This document shows positions 16,835 to 21,611 of a stretch of DNA of 40,919 bases, in pieces. The notes under the pieces were generated by a model, which did not search any database, was not told where the DNA came from, and was given only the letters and a program-made list of their open reading frames with translations. The stretch is from an uncultured Bacteroidales bacterium (lineage in GTDB: Bacteria > Bacteroidota > Bacteroidia > Bacteroidales > WCHB1-69). The position numbers were made by a program, and so were the translations under genes. The first letter of the stretch is position 1. Every line of letters begins with the position of its first letter. The stretch covers positions 1 to 40,919 of the forward strand of contig CAJOQK010000095.1 of assembly GCA_905236885.1 (NCBI GenBank), in the 5' to 3' direction.

Positions 16835-18099
16835 TGAAGCAGATACGCATTGCTGTCGTCGGATTGGGCTATGTGGGTCTGCCTTTGGCCAGGCTCTTTT
16901 CCACGAAATATGAAACCATTGGCTATGACATGAATGAGGCGCGCGTGGCCACACTGAATGCCGGTCACGACACAACCCTGGAGGTGGAGGACGGTTTGCT
17001 GCAGGAGGCGTTGCGTAACGGTTTCCGCTGCACCTCCTGCCTGGAGGAGATCCGTGACTGTAACTTTTATGTGGTTGCGGTTCCCACGCCGGTTGACAAG
17101 AACAACCATCCGGACCTGACGCCGCTGTTAGGCGCTTCGGAGAGTGTGGGGAAGGTGATTTCCAAAGGCGATGTGGTTGTTTATGAATCAACTGTCTACC
17201 CGGGTGTGACGGAGGAGGAGTGTTTGCCGGTAGTGGCCCGCGTGAGCGGTTTGGTCTACAACCTCGACTTTTTCGCCGGTTATTCTCCGGAGCGCATCAA
17301 TCCGGGCGACAAGGAGCATACGGTGGAGAAAATCAAGAAGGTGACTTCGGGTTCCACTCCTGAAATCGCCGATTTGATCGACAGCGTATACCGTTCCGTT
17401 CTGGTAAACGGCACGCACAAGGCTCCCTCCATCAAGGTGGCGGAGGCCTCCAAAATTATTGAAAACTCCCAGCGGGATGTCAATATCGCCTTCATGAACG
17501 AGCTGGCCAAGATATTCAACGCCATGGGAATCGATACGCATGATGTGTTGGATGCCGCCGCAAGCAAGTGGAATTTCATCCGTTTGAGCCCCGGTCTGGT
17601 GGGCGGGCACTGCATCAGTGTGGATCCCTATTATCTTATACAGAAAGCCCAGGTTTACGGTGTGTTGCCGCGAATCATGCACACTTCACGCCGCCTCAAT
17701 GACGGCATGGGGGCCTATGTGGCCAACCAGGTCATCAGGTGCATGAACAAAAAGGGGGTCATGGTCAAGGATGCCAAGATTCTGATTTTGGGCTTCACCT
17801 TCAAGGAGAATTGTCCGGATACGCGGAACACCAAGGTGATGGACATCATCCAAACCCTTTCGGAATATACTGCCGACATCACGGTGTGTGACCCTTGGGC
17901 GGATGTGGATGCGGTGAAACGTCATTATGGGCTGCAAATTCAACGGCAGCTTCCGGAAACTGCGTTCGATGCGGTGATTCTGGCCGTGGCCCATAAGGAG
18001 TTTTTGCAGGCCGACCTAAAAGCATTGTTGAAACCGGTCAGCGTCCTGTATGATGTCAAAGGCTTTCTGCCCCGTGAAATGGTAGACGCTAGGCTATGA
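16834..18099 (+). CDS. UDP-N-acetylhexosamine 6-dehydrogenase (WbpA/WbpO/TviB/UgdA group)
   Basis: NAD-dependent four-electron oxidation of UDP-GlcNAc (or UDP-GalNAc) to the uronic acid, the first step for the WbpB/E/D genes upstream. Seen: IAVVGLGYVGLPLA (6-19), VAVPTPVD (81-88), YESTVYPGVTEE, SPERINPGD, and the catalytic Cys260 in GGHCISVDPYYL. The C-terminal domain has GFTFKENCPDTRNTKV. 421 aa, normal. The sequence sits with the TviB/WbpO/VipA branch, but substrate (GlcNAc or GalNAc) cannot be read from it; pathway context favours UDP-GlcNAc. It overlaps rfbB by one base and the UpxY-like gene by four, so translation is coupled. Confidence 0.88.
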   Translation: MKQIRIAVVGLGYVGLPLARLFSTKYETIGYDMNEARVATLNAGHDTTLEVEDGLLQEALRNGFRCTSCLEEIRDCNFYVVAVPTPVDKNNHPDLTPLLGASESVGKVISKGDVVVYESTVYPGVTEEECLPVVARVSGLVYNLDFFAGYSPERINPGDKEHTVEKIKKVTSGSTPEIADLIDSVYRSVLVNGTHKAPSIKVAEASKIIENSQRDVNIAFMNELAKIFNAMGIDTHDVLDAAASKWNFIRLSPGLVGGHCISVDPYYLIQKAQVYGVLPRIMHTSRRLNDGMGAYVANQVIRCMNKKGVMVKDAKILILGFTFKENCPDTRNTKVMDIIQTLSEYTADITVCDPWADVDAVKRHYGLQIQRQLPETAFDAVILAVAHKEFLQADLKALLKPVSVLYDVKGFLPREMVDARL

Positions 18100-18611
18100 G
18101 CGCGGAAAAGTTCTGGTATGTGGGCTTTGTGAAATCCTGTCAGGAGAAGCGTGCGGCTGAAGCCTTGCGGGAAAAGGGGGAGGAGTATTTTTTGCCGGTG
18201 CAGCGGGTGCACAAGCGTTGGAGCGACCGCATGAAATGGGTGGACGTGCTTGTCATGCGGGGCATGATTTTTTTGTATATCACCGAAAAACGCCGTATTC
18301 CCCTGTTGAGTGAGATTTACGGTCTATATGGCTATATGACGGAGGGGGGGACATATCATCCGGTCACTGTGCCGCCTGATGAGATGGAAACCTTCAAGTT
18401 CATGCTTTCCCAAAGCGCAATGCCGGTCTCTGTCACCCAGCAGCCCTTGCATAAAGGGGAGAAGGTGATGGTGGTCAGGGGGCCGCTCTGCGGCTTGAAA
18501 GGGGAGCTGATCGATGTTGGCAAAAGGAAAAGGGTCATTGTCCGTTTCCCACTGCTTGGCACCGCCTCCGTGGAGGTTCCGTTGGAGAATGTGGAACGGA
18601 TAGAGCTTTAG
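18096..18611 (+). CDS. UpxY-like NusG paralogue (transcription antiterminator)
   Basis: 171 aa. The N-terminal NGN domain is seen in FWYVGFVKSCQEKRAAEALR and YFLPVQRVHKRWSDRMKWVD. The C-terminal KOW domain is seen in LHKGEKVMVVRGPLCGLKG, ending VEVPLENVERIEL. In Bacteroides, UpxY proteins load on RNA polymerase and prevent early termination in their own capsule operon; they are normally the first gene. Here the gene is last, overlaps the dehydrogenase by ATGA, and is followed by a terminator. It could act on this operon by feedback, on the sugar genes elsewhere, or be a relic of locus rearrangement. No UpxZ-type partner was seen. Confidence 0.85.
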   Translation: MSAEKFWYVGFVKSCQEKRAAEALREKGEEYFLPVQRVHKRWSDRMKWVDVLVMRGMIFLYITEKRRIPLLSEIYGLYGYMTEGGTYHPVTVPPDEMETFKFMLSQSAMPVSVTQQPLHKGEKVMVVRGPLCGLKGELIDVGKRKRVIVRFPLLGTASVEVPLENVERIEL

Positions 18612-18660: not shown

Positions 18661-18688
18661 AAGAATCCCGCATTTTTGCGGGATTCTT
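18661..18688. terminator. Convergent terminator hairpin
   Basis: AAGAATCCCGCA (18661-18672) pairs with TGCGGGATTCTT (18677-18688), loop TTTT, followed by GTTATTTTG. It lies between the plus-strand sugar operon and the minus-strand gene ending at 18707, and can serve both. Confidence 0.8.
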
Positions 18689-18706: not shown

Positions 18707-19564
18707 TTAGTGCCGAAGAATCAGGAAATTTCCCTGTCGGCTGTACCTTTTGCCGTTTTTGTCGGTGCAGAGGAGCTGGTAGATGTAGACGCCGTGCGGC
18801 TGCGCGGTTCCCTTGAAAGTGCCGTCCCAGGCCTCTTCGGGACGGGTGGTCTGGAACATCAGCTGCCGCGAAGGGTTGTATATTCGCAGCAGGTATTGTG
18901 TGGTCTCTCCTTCAATGTCAGGGCGGTATGTGTCATTCAAGCCGTCCCCGTTGGGGGTGAAGGCCGAAGGGAAGATGATCTGCAGGCTGTCAGCCGTTTC
19001 CTCCGGCGCAGTTTCGGAGAGATTTGTCATGGCTGGGGGCTGCGGTTGTGAAATGATGGGATCAGCCTTTTTTTCAGGTGCTTTCCGCTGCGGTTCCGTC
19101 AATTTTTTGGTGGGGGCCGCCTTTTCTTCCGGAATAGGCGCTGTTACCATGGCAGGCGCTTCACTTTCCACCGTTTCGCGGATGGGGGCTTGGCTGTCAT
19201 CCGGAACAGCAATAATGGTTTCTTCCTCCTGATGCGAGGGCTCATTCACGCCAATTTTTTCCTCTTTGGAGGATCTGTTCATGGTCTGTAGGGCAAAAGT
19301 CTGTTCCTCCGCAGGTTGTTGCGCGGGTTGTTGTAGGAGGGCGGTCTCTGTGGCAACCGTAGTCTCCTTGGTTTGTTTGCCAATTATCCATGCGATGGCG
19401 GCCACGCCGAGCAATGCCGTGCCAGCCCATATCCATCTGCTGCTCCGCCAAAAGTCGCGGATTCTCATTCTTTTCTGAATCTGCTCCCAGATTGCGGGGT
19501 CGGGTTCCGGTCCCTTGGACAGCCCTGTCCGGAAAATTTCTCCTATCTGCTGAGAATCATTCAT
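18707..19564 (-). CDS. Membrane protein with anti-sigma-like layout and T9SS type B (CHU_C) domain
   Basis: 285 aa. Residues 1-42 are cytoplasmic and include PEPDPAIWEQIQKRMR. One transmembrane helix follows (about 43-62, WIWAGTALLGVAAIAWIIG). Then a Pro/Glu/Ala-rich linker (about 65-190), then a C-terminal gliding-motility/CHU_C domain (about 193-285: FPSAFTPNGDGLND, YLLRIYNPSRQLMF, AWDGTFKG, HGVYIYQL). CHU_C domains usually direct proteins to the type IX secretion system after Sec export. Here there is no cleavable signal peptide, so the domain should hang in the periplasm. The gene overlaps the upstream ECF sigma gene by eight bases, the position of an anti-sigma factor. A role as membrane-bound sensor for the sigma factor is inferred; a true T9SS cargo is the alternative. 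Confidence 0.8.
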   Translation of the reverse strand: MNDSQQIGEIFRTGLSKGPEPDPAIWEQIQKRMRIRDFWRSSRWIWAGTALLGVAAIAWIIGKQTKETTVATETALLQQPAQQPAEEQTFALQTMNRSSKEEKIGVNEPSHQEEETIIAVPDDSQAPIRETVESEAPAMVTAPIPEEKAAPTKKLTEPQRKAPEKKADPIISQPQPPAMTNLSETAPEETADSLQIIFPSAFTPNGDGLNDTYRPDIEGETTQYLLRIYNPSRQLMFQTTRPEEAWDGTFKGTAQPHGVYIYQLLCTDKNGKRYSRQGNFLILRH

Positions 19565-20132
19565 CTTGAAGTTTTTTTTGTTTGATGCTGTTAATAATCT
19601 CCCTCAATTGTTTCTTTGCACGCGACAGCTGCGAGCGGCAGTTTTCCGGAGAGCAGTGCAGCAGTTTTGCCGCCTCCTCTGAAGAGTATCCGTCCATTTC
19701 GCAGAGGTTGAACATCATCCTGTATCCGTCGGGAAGCTGCTGTATGATTTCCAGCAGGGTGTTGTAGCTGAAGAGTCTTTTCATACTAATCTCCTCTTCA
19801 TCCGCTTTCTCTTCCGGCTGCTGCCTCATCTTCTTCTCCACGGAGGTCTCCCCCAGCAGGTATCTGTCCTTTATTTTGTAAAAGGCAGCCACCTCATGGA
19901 TTGCAATGCTATGTATCCAGGTTCCCAGGCCGCTCTTTTTTTTGAACTGGCCGATATGGCTGAACACATGGATGAACGTCTCCTGCATAATGTCATCCGC
20001 ATCCGCTTTGTTGCGTGTATACCGTAAAATCCGCGCGTATATCTCTCCGGAATATTTATGGTACAGCGCTTCCCGAAAGAGATTATCTCTCTTCAGGCAT
20101 CCCTCAATAATTTTCTCATCCGAAAAGTCCAT
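19557..20132 (-). CDS. ECF-type RNA polymerase sigma factor
   Basis: 191 aa with sigma region 2 (LYHKYSGEIYARILRYTRNK and ADADDIMQETFIHVFSHIG), a charged variable linker (about 95-118), and region 4 as a helix-turn-helix (QLPDGYRMMFNLCEMDGYSS, then EEAAKLLHCSPENCRSQLSR). These recognise the -10 and -35 parts of target promoters. The ATGAATGA overlap with the downstream membrane protein suggests that protein controls it. It begins 75 bases after the stop of the beta-CASP gene on the same strand, so it may be read from the same transcript. Target genes cannot be told from the window. Confidence 0.9.
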   Translation of the reverse strand: MDFSDEKIIEGCLKRDNLFREALYHKYSGEIYARILRYTRNKADADDIMQETFIHVFSHIGQFKKKSGLGTWIHSIAIHEVAAFYKIKDRYLLGETSVEKKMRQQPEEKADEEEISMKRLFSYNTLLEIIQQLPDGYRMMFNLCEMDGYSSEEAAKLLHCSPENCRSQLSRAKKQLREIINSIKQKKLQDE

Positions 20133-20207
20133 ACGGCGTTTCCGATATTTCTTATCTGTTTAGATGAAGAAAAAGCCGATTTGTTGCATCAAATTTGAAA
20201 AAAATTT

Positions 20208-21611
20208 TCACAAAATTACATTTTCCCGGAATTCGGGAATGGAGATATTTTTGAAACCATTGGTATTCAGGTAGTCACGATATTTGTATTGCACGGGCCT
20301 CTCGCCGTGGATCAGGAAAATTTGTTTCACCTTGTTCTTGTCCTGGCAGGAGAGGTAGCGGTGCATCTCCTCGTAGTCGGCATGTCCGGACAAGGCGTCG
20401 ATTTGGCGGATTTGTGCATTGACCTGGTATTTGTTGCCGTAGATGGAGACAATTTTTTCCCCGGAGGCGATTTTGTGGCCTAAGGTGTTGGGGGAGCAGT
20501 AGCCGACAACAAGCACGGTGGTGCGCCGGTTTTCAATGTTGTTGGCCAGATGGTGCTTGATACGTCCCGCCTCCATCATGCCCGAAGCCGAAATGATGAT
20601 GCAGGGGCGGTTGTGGGTGTTCAGCCGTTTGGAATCCTCCTTGGTCCGGACATATATCAGGTTGTCGAAACCGAAGGGGTCCTTCTGGGTGCGGATCACG
20701 TCTAAAATGTCATCCTTGAAGCACTCGGTATGAAGCCGGTAAATATCTGTGGCTGAAACGGAAAGAGGGCTGTCCACGAAAATCGGCACATCGGGCAGCC
20801 GGTTCTTCTTTTTCAACAGGTTCAGTATGTAAATTATTTCCTGACAGCGTCCTATGGCAAATGACGGAATCAGCAGCTTGCCCAGATTCTTCACACAGGT
20901 CTCCTGCACCACCTGCGCCAGTTTCTCCTCCGCCTTGGGAATTGGCTCGTGCCTGCGGTCGCCGTAGGTCGATTCTGTGATGATGTAGTCCACTTGGGGG
21001 AACGGGTCGGGGTTTTTGAGCAGATGCTTGTTGTACCGGCCTATGTCGCCCGTGTAGCAGAGGCTCTTCTCCTCACCGTTCTCCTGGAAATAGAGCACGA
21101 TGGCGGAGCCGCCCAAAATGTGTCCGGTTCCGTAAAAGGCCACTTGCACGCCCTCTTCAATGGTGATTTTCAAGTCAGTGGGCATGCTGATAAAGTAGCG
21201 CAGCGAAGCGAAGGCGTCACGTGCGGTGTAGAGGGGTTCTCCGGGCGGAAGTCCCAGTTTCGCCTGTTTTTTGTTAAAGTCGATAATATCGCTCTCCTGT
21301 ATTTTTCCCGCATCGGGAAGCATGATGGAGCAGAGGTCGCGGGTGGCGTGGGTGCAGTATATTTTTCCCTTGAAACCCTGTTTGCAGATGTAGGGAATGA
21401 GGCCTGAATGGTCAATGTGTGCGTGGGAAAGAAGCAGAATGTCAATCTCTTCCGGATTAAAACCCAAATCCCTGTTCATGGAGTCGGTCTCCAGACCCTT
21501 GCCCTGGTAGGTGCCGCAATCCAACAATATTTTTTTCCCTGTTATCGTGGTGACCAGAACCTTGCTGCCTGTCACCTCTCCTCCTGTCGCTCCTAAAAAC
21601 TGTATGTTCAT
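20208..21611 (-). CDS. Metallo-beta-lactamase-fold/beta-CASP RNase (CPSF73/Ysh1-like)
   Basis: 467 aa, cytoplasmic. Motif 1 is LLDCGTYQG. The zinc motif 2 SHAHIDHSG lies at about residues 60-68. Motif 3 is GTGHILGGSAIV, motif 4 is YTGDIG. Beta-CASP motifs are ESTYGDR, SASGMMEAGRIKHHL, and the final GHADYEE and LIHGE. This is the bacterial CPSF73-like group, expected to be an endo- or exoribonuclease. It is shorter than RNase J and lacks its C-terminal domain, so it is not RNase J. ATG 21611 precedes the conserved start MNIQFLGATGGEVTGS. The neighbouring gene upstream is another metallo-beta-lactamase-fold protein, 57 bases away. Confidence 0.92.
   Translation of the reverse strand: MNIQFLGATGGEVTGSKVLVTTITGKKILLDCGTYQGKGLETDSMNRDLGFNPEEIDILLLSHAHIDHSGLIPYICKQGFKGKIYCTHATRDLCSIMLPDAGKIQESDIIDFNKKQAKLGLPPGEPLYTARDAFASLRYFISMPTDLKITIEEGVQVAFYGTGHILGGSAIVLYFQENGEEKSLCYTGDIGRYNKHLLKNPDPFPQVDYIITESTYGDRRHEPIPKAEEKLAQVVQETCVKNLGKLLIPSFAIGRCQEIIYILNLLKKKNRLPDVPIFVDSPLSVSATDIYRLHTECFKDDILDVIRTQKDPFGFDNLIYVRTKEDSKRLNTHNRPCIIISASGMMEAGRIKHHLANNIENRRTTVLVVGYCSPNTLGHKIASGEKIVSIYGNKYQVNAQIRQIDALSGHADYEEMHRYLSCQDKNKVKQIFLIHGERPVQYKYRDYLNTNGFKNISIPEFRENVIL

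Follow-up and report, generated by a model that had tools for sequence, protein, structure and literature searches.

Dma anti-sigma factors follow a plan that consists of a sigma-binding N-terminal segment, one membrane helix, a long disordered tether and an outer-membrane barrel (PMC13088901). They are described as influencing vesiculation and genes for polysaccharide utilisation. In the PorA/PorXY-SigP system of Porphyromonas gingivalis, an ECF sigma factor is affected by a protein with a C-terminal domain (CTD) of the type IX secretion system (T9SS) (PMC7712824). PorA, a surface protein, signals by way of a two-component system and controls genes for the T9SS machinery; its gene lies away from the sigma gene, and it is found only in Porphyromonas (PMC7712824). 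Type B CTDs (family PF13585/TIGR04131) are carried by cargo proteins such as SprB of Flavobacterium johnsoniae and PG1035 of P. gingivalis. PorP/SprF barrels bind and shuttle these domains, which can stay uncleaved at the surface (PMC9143113, PMC12618676). An SprB CTD fusion is secreted only if it has each of the five conserved motifs of type B (PMC12618676).

The sigma factor and membrane protein described here resemble each of these systems in part. As in Dma, the membrane protein is encoded beside an ECF sigma factor gene and combines a predicted sigma-binding N-terminal segment, one helix and a disordered tether with a C-terminal domain suited to the outer membrane. However, that domain is a type B T9SS CTD and not a beta-barrel, and the sigma factor has a T9SS adhesin as its candidate target. 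The CTD is of the same family as those of type B cargo, but such cargo begins with a signal peptide and in most cases contains an RWG motif, whereas the present protein has a cytoplasmic N-terminus and a membrane anchor and lacks RWG. With PorA it would share a T9SS CTD and an influence on an ECF sigma factor. No CTD-bearing anti-sigma factor is described in the literature searched; subscription papers were largely outside its reach, and the novelty of the protein is therefore provisional.

The sigma factor gene and its membrane-anchored partner

The window, the whole stretch of DNA that was analysed, comprises 40,919 nucleotides from an uncultured Bacteroidales bacterium whose genome is a 2.2-Mb draft (98% complete, 188 contigs). 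An ECF sigma factor gene occupies 19557..20132 on the minus strand and encodes 191 aa with Sigma70_r2 (E 2e-12) and Sigma70_r4_2 (E 2e-15) domains in Pfam. These matches are to general ECF models, and no ECF21 model was seen in the libraries searched. The gene of the predicted anti-sigma factor (18707..19564, minus strand, 285 aa) overlaps the sigma gene by 8 nt (ATGAATGA, 19557..19564, minus strand). The initial annotation had described an ECF sigma factor with an eight-base overlap to a membrane partner built of a short N-terminus, one helix, a linker and a CHU_C end typical of type B secretion, and both open reading frames lie exactly where it had placed them.

The domain layout of the partner also agrees with that description. 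Residues 1-43 (19436..19564, minus strand) form the cytoplasmic N-terminal segment, the putative anti-sigma segment, with a conserved W26 motif. The one hydrophobic segment, residues 44-62 (19379..19435, minus strand), is the single transmembrane segment. A Pro/Glu/Thr-rich periplasmic linker follows (residues 63-189; 18998..19378, minus strand) and leads to the type B CTD (residues 190-285; 18710..18997, minus strand), which matches CHU_C PF13585 (E 2.2e-12, 47 bits, cut-off 27) and the TIGR04131 type B sorting domain (E 8e-13, 48, cut-off 35). In the AlphaFold model, residues 3-16 and 23-72 are helical, residues 69-189 are disordered (pLDDT <50) and residues ~195-285 are folded with a pLDDT of about 90 or more. 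A Pfam scan (E<=1) finds no FecR domain in the partner. The predicted fold of natural sigma-anti-sigma fusions (A4) is of low confidence (pTM 0.28). The linker between helix and CTD measures 123-369 residues in 80 relatives (median 151) and could in principle span the periplasm, so that the CTD would reach the outer membrane. It is also the most variable of the parts compared in two congeners (L005 and L006), with 64% identity as opposed to 90-91% in the N-terminus and CTD.

A protein with a T9SS sorting domain could be an ordinary cargo that is cleaved and secreted and merely adjoins a sigma gene. The CTD scores above curated cut-offs for such domains, and 23 of 87 relatives have an A-x-A near the end of the helix. 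Real cargos in these genomes, however, begin with short signal peptides, whereas the partner family has a conserved N-terminus of 40-50 residues before the helix, which is homologous to the N-termini of barrel-ended partners, and it is strictly adjacent to sigma genes across genera. The ordinary-cargo explanation is extremely improbable. A cleaved, secreted cargo, which the initial annotation had named as one finding that would overturn its reading, is unlikely in view of the conserved 43-residue N-terminus before the helix and the lack of a signal peptide.

The surroundings of the pair are partly conserved. A gene for a beta-CASP protein with a metallo-beta-lactamase fold (20208..21611, minus strand) lies directly 5' of the sigma gene in the window, a position that it shares with its counterparts in two congeners and two further genera (L252, L253, L322, L323, L327-L331). 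A 12-bp hairpin (18661..18688; -19.1 kcal/mol, z -5.5) separates the anti-sigma gene, which it directly follows, from a convergent gene and is a possible two-way terminator. The convergent gene (18096-18611, plus strand) is NusG-like and stands at the end of a polysaccharide-synthesis cluster. By eye, we take it to be of the UpxY type; UpxY-type genes usually stand at the head of their own clusters.

Recurrence of the pair and its relation to barrel-ended partners

The pairing was followed through the family, whose traceable members are uncultured Bacteroidales. Of 41 genomes searched with the partner, 38 give matches, most of which cover the CTD alone; the checked matches with small open frames are mostly sigma-linked. 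When loci are ranked by a sigma alignment search, a CTD partner follows at all of the best 30 in the family: 28 were assigned by script, L119 was read by hand, and L116 is interrupted by N, its CTD being visible in L329. The following 70 loci include 52 with a CTD partner; the rest include contig-cut partners, nine short partners without a CTD and one partner with a barrel-like end. The window genome itself contains a second sigma/CTD-partner pair (L004). The pairing is found at about a hundred related loci, and the survey of related genomes proposed in the initial annotation bears out the sigma/CHU_C combination. Because all of the best 30 family loci carry it and a second pair is present in the same genome, the pair is more than a chance neighbourhood. 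The short partners (L182, L183, L192, L204, L207-L211) have 162-182 aa, one helix and no CTD, and several have a DTI motif near the end.

Outside the family, 78 loci were collected from named records, and the script finds a downstream partner for 75 sigma genes. Pfam on 73 of these partners gives OMP_b-brl_2 in 31, OMP_b-brl in 12 (counts that may overlap) and CHU_C in 5. An HMM built solely from the N-termini of CTD partners recognises 85 of 159 other partners by their N-termini (E<1e-3), and many of these end in a barrel. Among background ORFs it matches 2 of 881 at the same threshold, and one of the two is L119, itself a partner that the script had missed. On the sigma tree, the CTD label changes 17 times over several clades, at least 10 of the changes being forced by well-supported branches and some of the 17 reflecting contig-cut partners labelled 'open'. 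Given these label changes, C-termini have probably been swapped repeatedly.

Since the same N-terminal domain outside the family mostly precedes an outer-membrane beta-barrel, the partner is, on sequence grounds, a Dma-like variant in which the barrel appears to have been exchanged for a T9SS tag several times. The protein is termed Dma-like, and not Dma, because the barrel is absent and because the likeness is to the described layout of Dma rather than to Dma sequences. A different arrangement occurs in related genomes (L194-L203), where an ECF sigma domain and a membrane helix are parts of one protein. Several of these fusions precede a separate gene for an outer-membrane-protein-like product, which recalls the reported Dma3.

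The recurrence of the pair, the tight gene overlap and the N-terminal domain common to partners of the Dma layout argue well for an anti-sigma role, and from its sequence the partner is very probably an anti-sigma factor. The opposite role is conceivable, that is, activation or stabilisation of the sigma factor, for example as a membrane platform, and the direction of control is not readable from sequence. The effects of a dma2 deletion in B. thetaiotaomicron nevertheless need the sigma factor das2, as expected for an inhibitor (PMC13088901), and a sigma gene directly followed by an anti-sigma gene is a common arrangement (PMC7712824). An activating partner is very unlikely. The anti-sigma part of the initial annotation therefore stands, on recurrence, overlap and N-terminal homology; its link to the T9SS has gained indirect evidence from T9SS genes, from a promoter-like motif before a type B adhesin and from the neighbours of some pairs. 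Its particular idea, that occupancy at the secretion machinery alters sigma release, is a hypothesis.

Possible links to type IX secretion and a candidate regulon

The window genome encodes SprA, GldM and three PorP/SprF proteins. Genes that bear type B CTDs recur near the pairs: cargo genes of the FN3-CHU_C type adjoin the pair or lie one gene away at 6 of 20 family loci. In L324 and L326, a type B CTD gene directly follows the anti-sigma gene; in L332, L333, L335 and L336 another gene intervenes, and in L327 the type B CTD gene is convergent. In two genomes of one lineage, the anti-sigma gene is followed by a PorP/SprF gene (L036, E 3e-63; L085, E 1e-61). Neither in the window nor in the 20 family loci inspected in wider context does a separate PorP/SprF gene stand beside the pair; in those loci, the sole match to the PorP model is an ORF that lies several genes off, at the edge of L332.

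A gene of the M16 peptidase family is another recurrent neighbour. It lies directly 3' of the anti-sigma gene in L328 (7365-8633), L332 (7494-8771) and L333 (7263-8543), and likewise in L331 and L334-L336. Outside the family, an M16-family gene with a strong catalytic-domain match follows the anti-sigma gene in L040 (6094-7314). The M16-family protein could take part in turnover of the anti-sigma factor.

The CTDs of the anti-sigma proteins can be compared with those of cargo. PNxFTPNGDGxND, WDG, GxYxY and the final G and R are retained in most of 86 anti-sigma CTDs. The tryptophan of RWG is present in 42 of 49 sampled cargo CTDs, a sample picked by similarity to the window CTD, and the RWG motif in 39 of the 49; both are absent from all 86 anti-sigma CTDs. 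Since this residue is missing throughout, anti-sigma CTDs may differ from ordinary cargo in their handling. The FN3-type cargos that adjoin some pairs also lack the RWG tryptophan, and the reading of its absence as a mark of proteins that are not exported was not kept as firm. Judged from these motifs, the missing tryptophan may mark a shuttle subclass and not a loss of export.

The same comparison bears on an alternative in which the protein is an inner-membrane anti-sigma factor that has recruited the CTD as an Ig-like periplasmic domain for sensing or stress, makes no contact with the T9SS and is controlled by ordinary regulated proteolysis. The systematic difference from sampled cargo at RWG fits this alternative, and so do the short partners, because their existence in the same family implies that a sigma/anti-sigma pair can work without a CTD. 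The fold is also a common Ig-like sandwich. A comparison with PDB structures finds the T9SS CTD 8glk_D (Z 8.9, rmsd 1.9, 73 aligned), 8gl8_D and PorU; since unrelated Ig-like domains match as highly, these matches are supportive only. A purely periplasmic domain does not, however, account readily for the other type B positions retained in most CTDs, for linkers of which every measured one has at least 123 residues, or for the repeated linkage to type B cargo, joined in one lineage by PorP/SprF. The candidate target, a type B cargo, speaks against it as well, and the periplasmic-sensor explanation is rather unlikely. Sensing of the T9SS by the CTD is plausible from the sequence features.

The candidate target was identified through a promoter-like motif. 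Most sigma genes of the group are preceded by GCAAC and, after about 17 nt, by [AG]TC. The candidate sigma autopromoter of the window, GCAACAAA-N14-ATCT, is at 20162..20187 on the minus strand, 30 nt 5' of the sigma ATG. The strict pattern GCAACAAA-N14/15-[AC]TCT, which was derived from the sigma promoter itself, yields few sites: 4 in G000, 3 in G001, 1 in G002 and 3 in G003, all congeneric genomes, as against 0-3 per genome for the reversed control. It precedes the sigma operon in G000, G001 and G003 and the gene of a related adhesin in all four genomes. Beside the adhesin gene in G000, G001 and G003 is a gene that, named by eye, is presumably lpxB. The adhesin is full-length only in G002, where it comprises a signal peptide, SprB repeats, PKD and a type B CTD; the adhesin gene of the window genome is cut by a contig end, so that the part where a CTD would be encoded is missing. 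In G003, the strict motif also precedes a gene whose LRR product has a type A CTD; G001 retains this site but not the gene, which is replaced there. A promoter-like site is kept in two congeners (L216 and L217, 1501-1527 in both), with one downstream gene swapped for an unrelated stretch. The sites of G000 at C149 and C127 were judged to be chance occurrences, that at C127 being inside a gene. The relaxed pattern GCAACN{16,17}CATCT was dropped because, beyond the strict sites, nearly all examined places were intragenic.

Since strict sites precede the sigma operon and the adhesin and LRR genes, the candidate regulon predicted within the window's genus consists of the sigma factor's own operon and T9SS cargo. 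The claim is limited to this genus because the same pattern in genus g5 gives almost only autopromoters. T9SS machinery genes are not found among the strict-motif sites of the four congeneric genomes. The possibility raised in the initial annotation that the sigma factor controls T9SS components finds no support in the candidate targets, which are cargo genes.

A proposed coupling of outer-membrane docking to transcription

On balance, the preferred reading is that the pair is a sigma/anti-sigma module of the Dma layout in which a type B T9SS domain takes the place of the barrel, although its full mechanism is put forward with moderate confidence. By homology, residues 1-43 would tether the sigma factor to the inner membrane. 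The single helix would anchor the anti-sigma protein, and the flexible linker would let the CTD reach the outer membrane. There, the CTD would dock on a PorP/SprF-type barrel or another outer-membrane component of the T9SS, and the protein would bridge both membranes. The state of the docking site may shift through competition by cargo, absence of the barrel or engagement of the translocon. Such a change would affect the anti-sigma factor in its tension, conformation or proteolysis and thereby release the sigma factor, a direction of signalling that we infer. The freed sigma factor would transcribe from the shared motif its own operon and, in the window's genus, the T9SS-exported adhesin. Docking of the CTD on a T9SS-linked site, which would tie sigma activity to type B export or docking, is somewhat favoured by the evidence at hand.

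A more specific version is offered tentatively and is rather less secure. The CTD may plug a PorP/SprF barrel or the translocon itself, and free capacity or cargo occupancy would then set the sigma-driven production of cargo. Such a secretion-coupled switch would perhaps be a counterpart in Bacteroidota, in its logic, to the export-coupled control by flagellar FlgM.

In the literature surveyed, PorXY-SigP is the only system described by which Bacteroidota match the production of surface adhesins to export capacity. Because the pairing of sigma factor and CTD partner recurs, the tag may report export or docking at the outer membrane to gene expression. If this is correct, a widespread class of anti-sigma factors carries the export tag of the cargo itself, which would provide a direct and testable link from type B secretion to transcription. 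The Dma plan would then be modular, with a built-in barrel and a docking tag as interchangeable outer-membrane ends.
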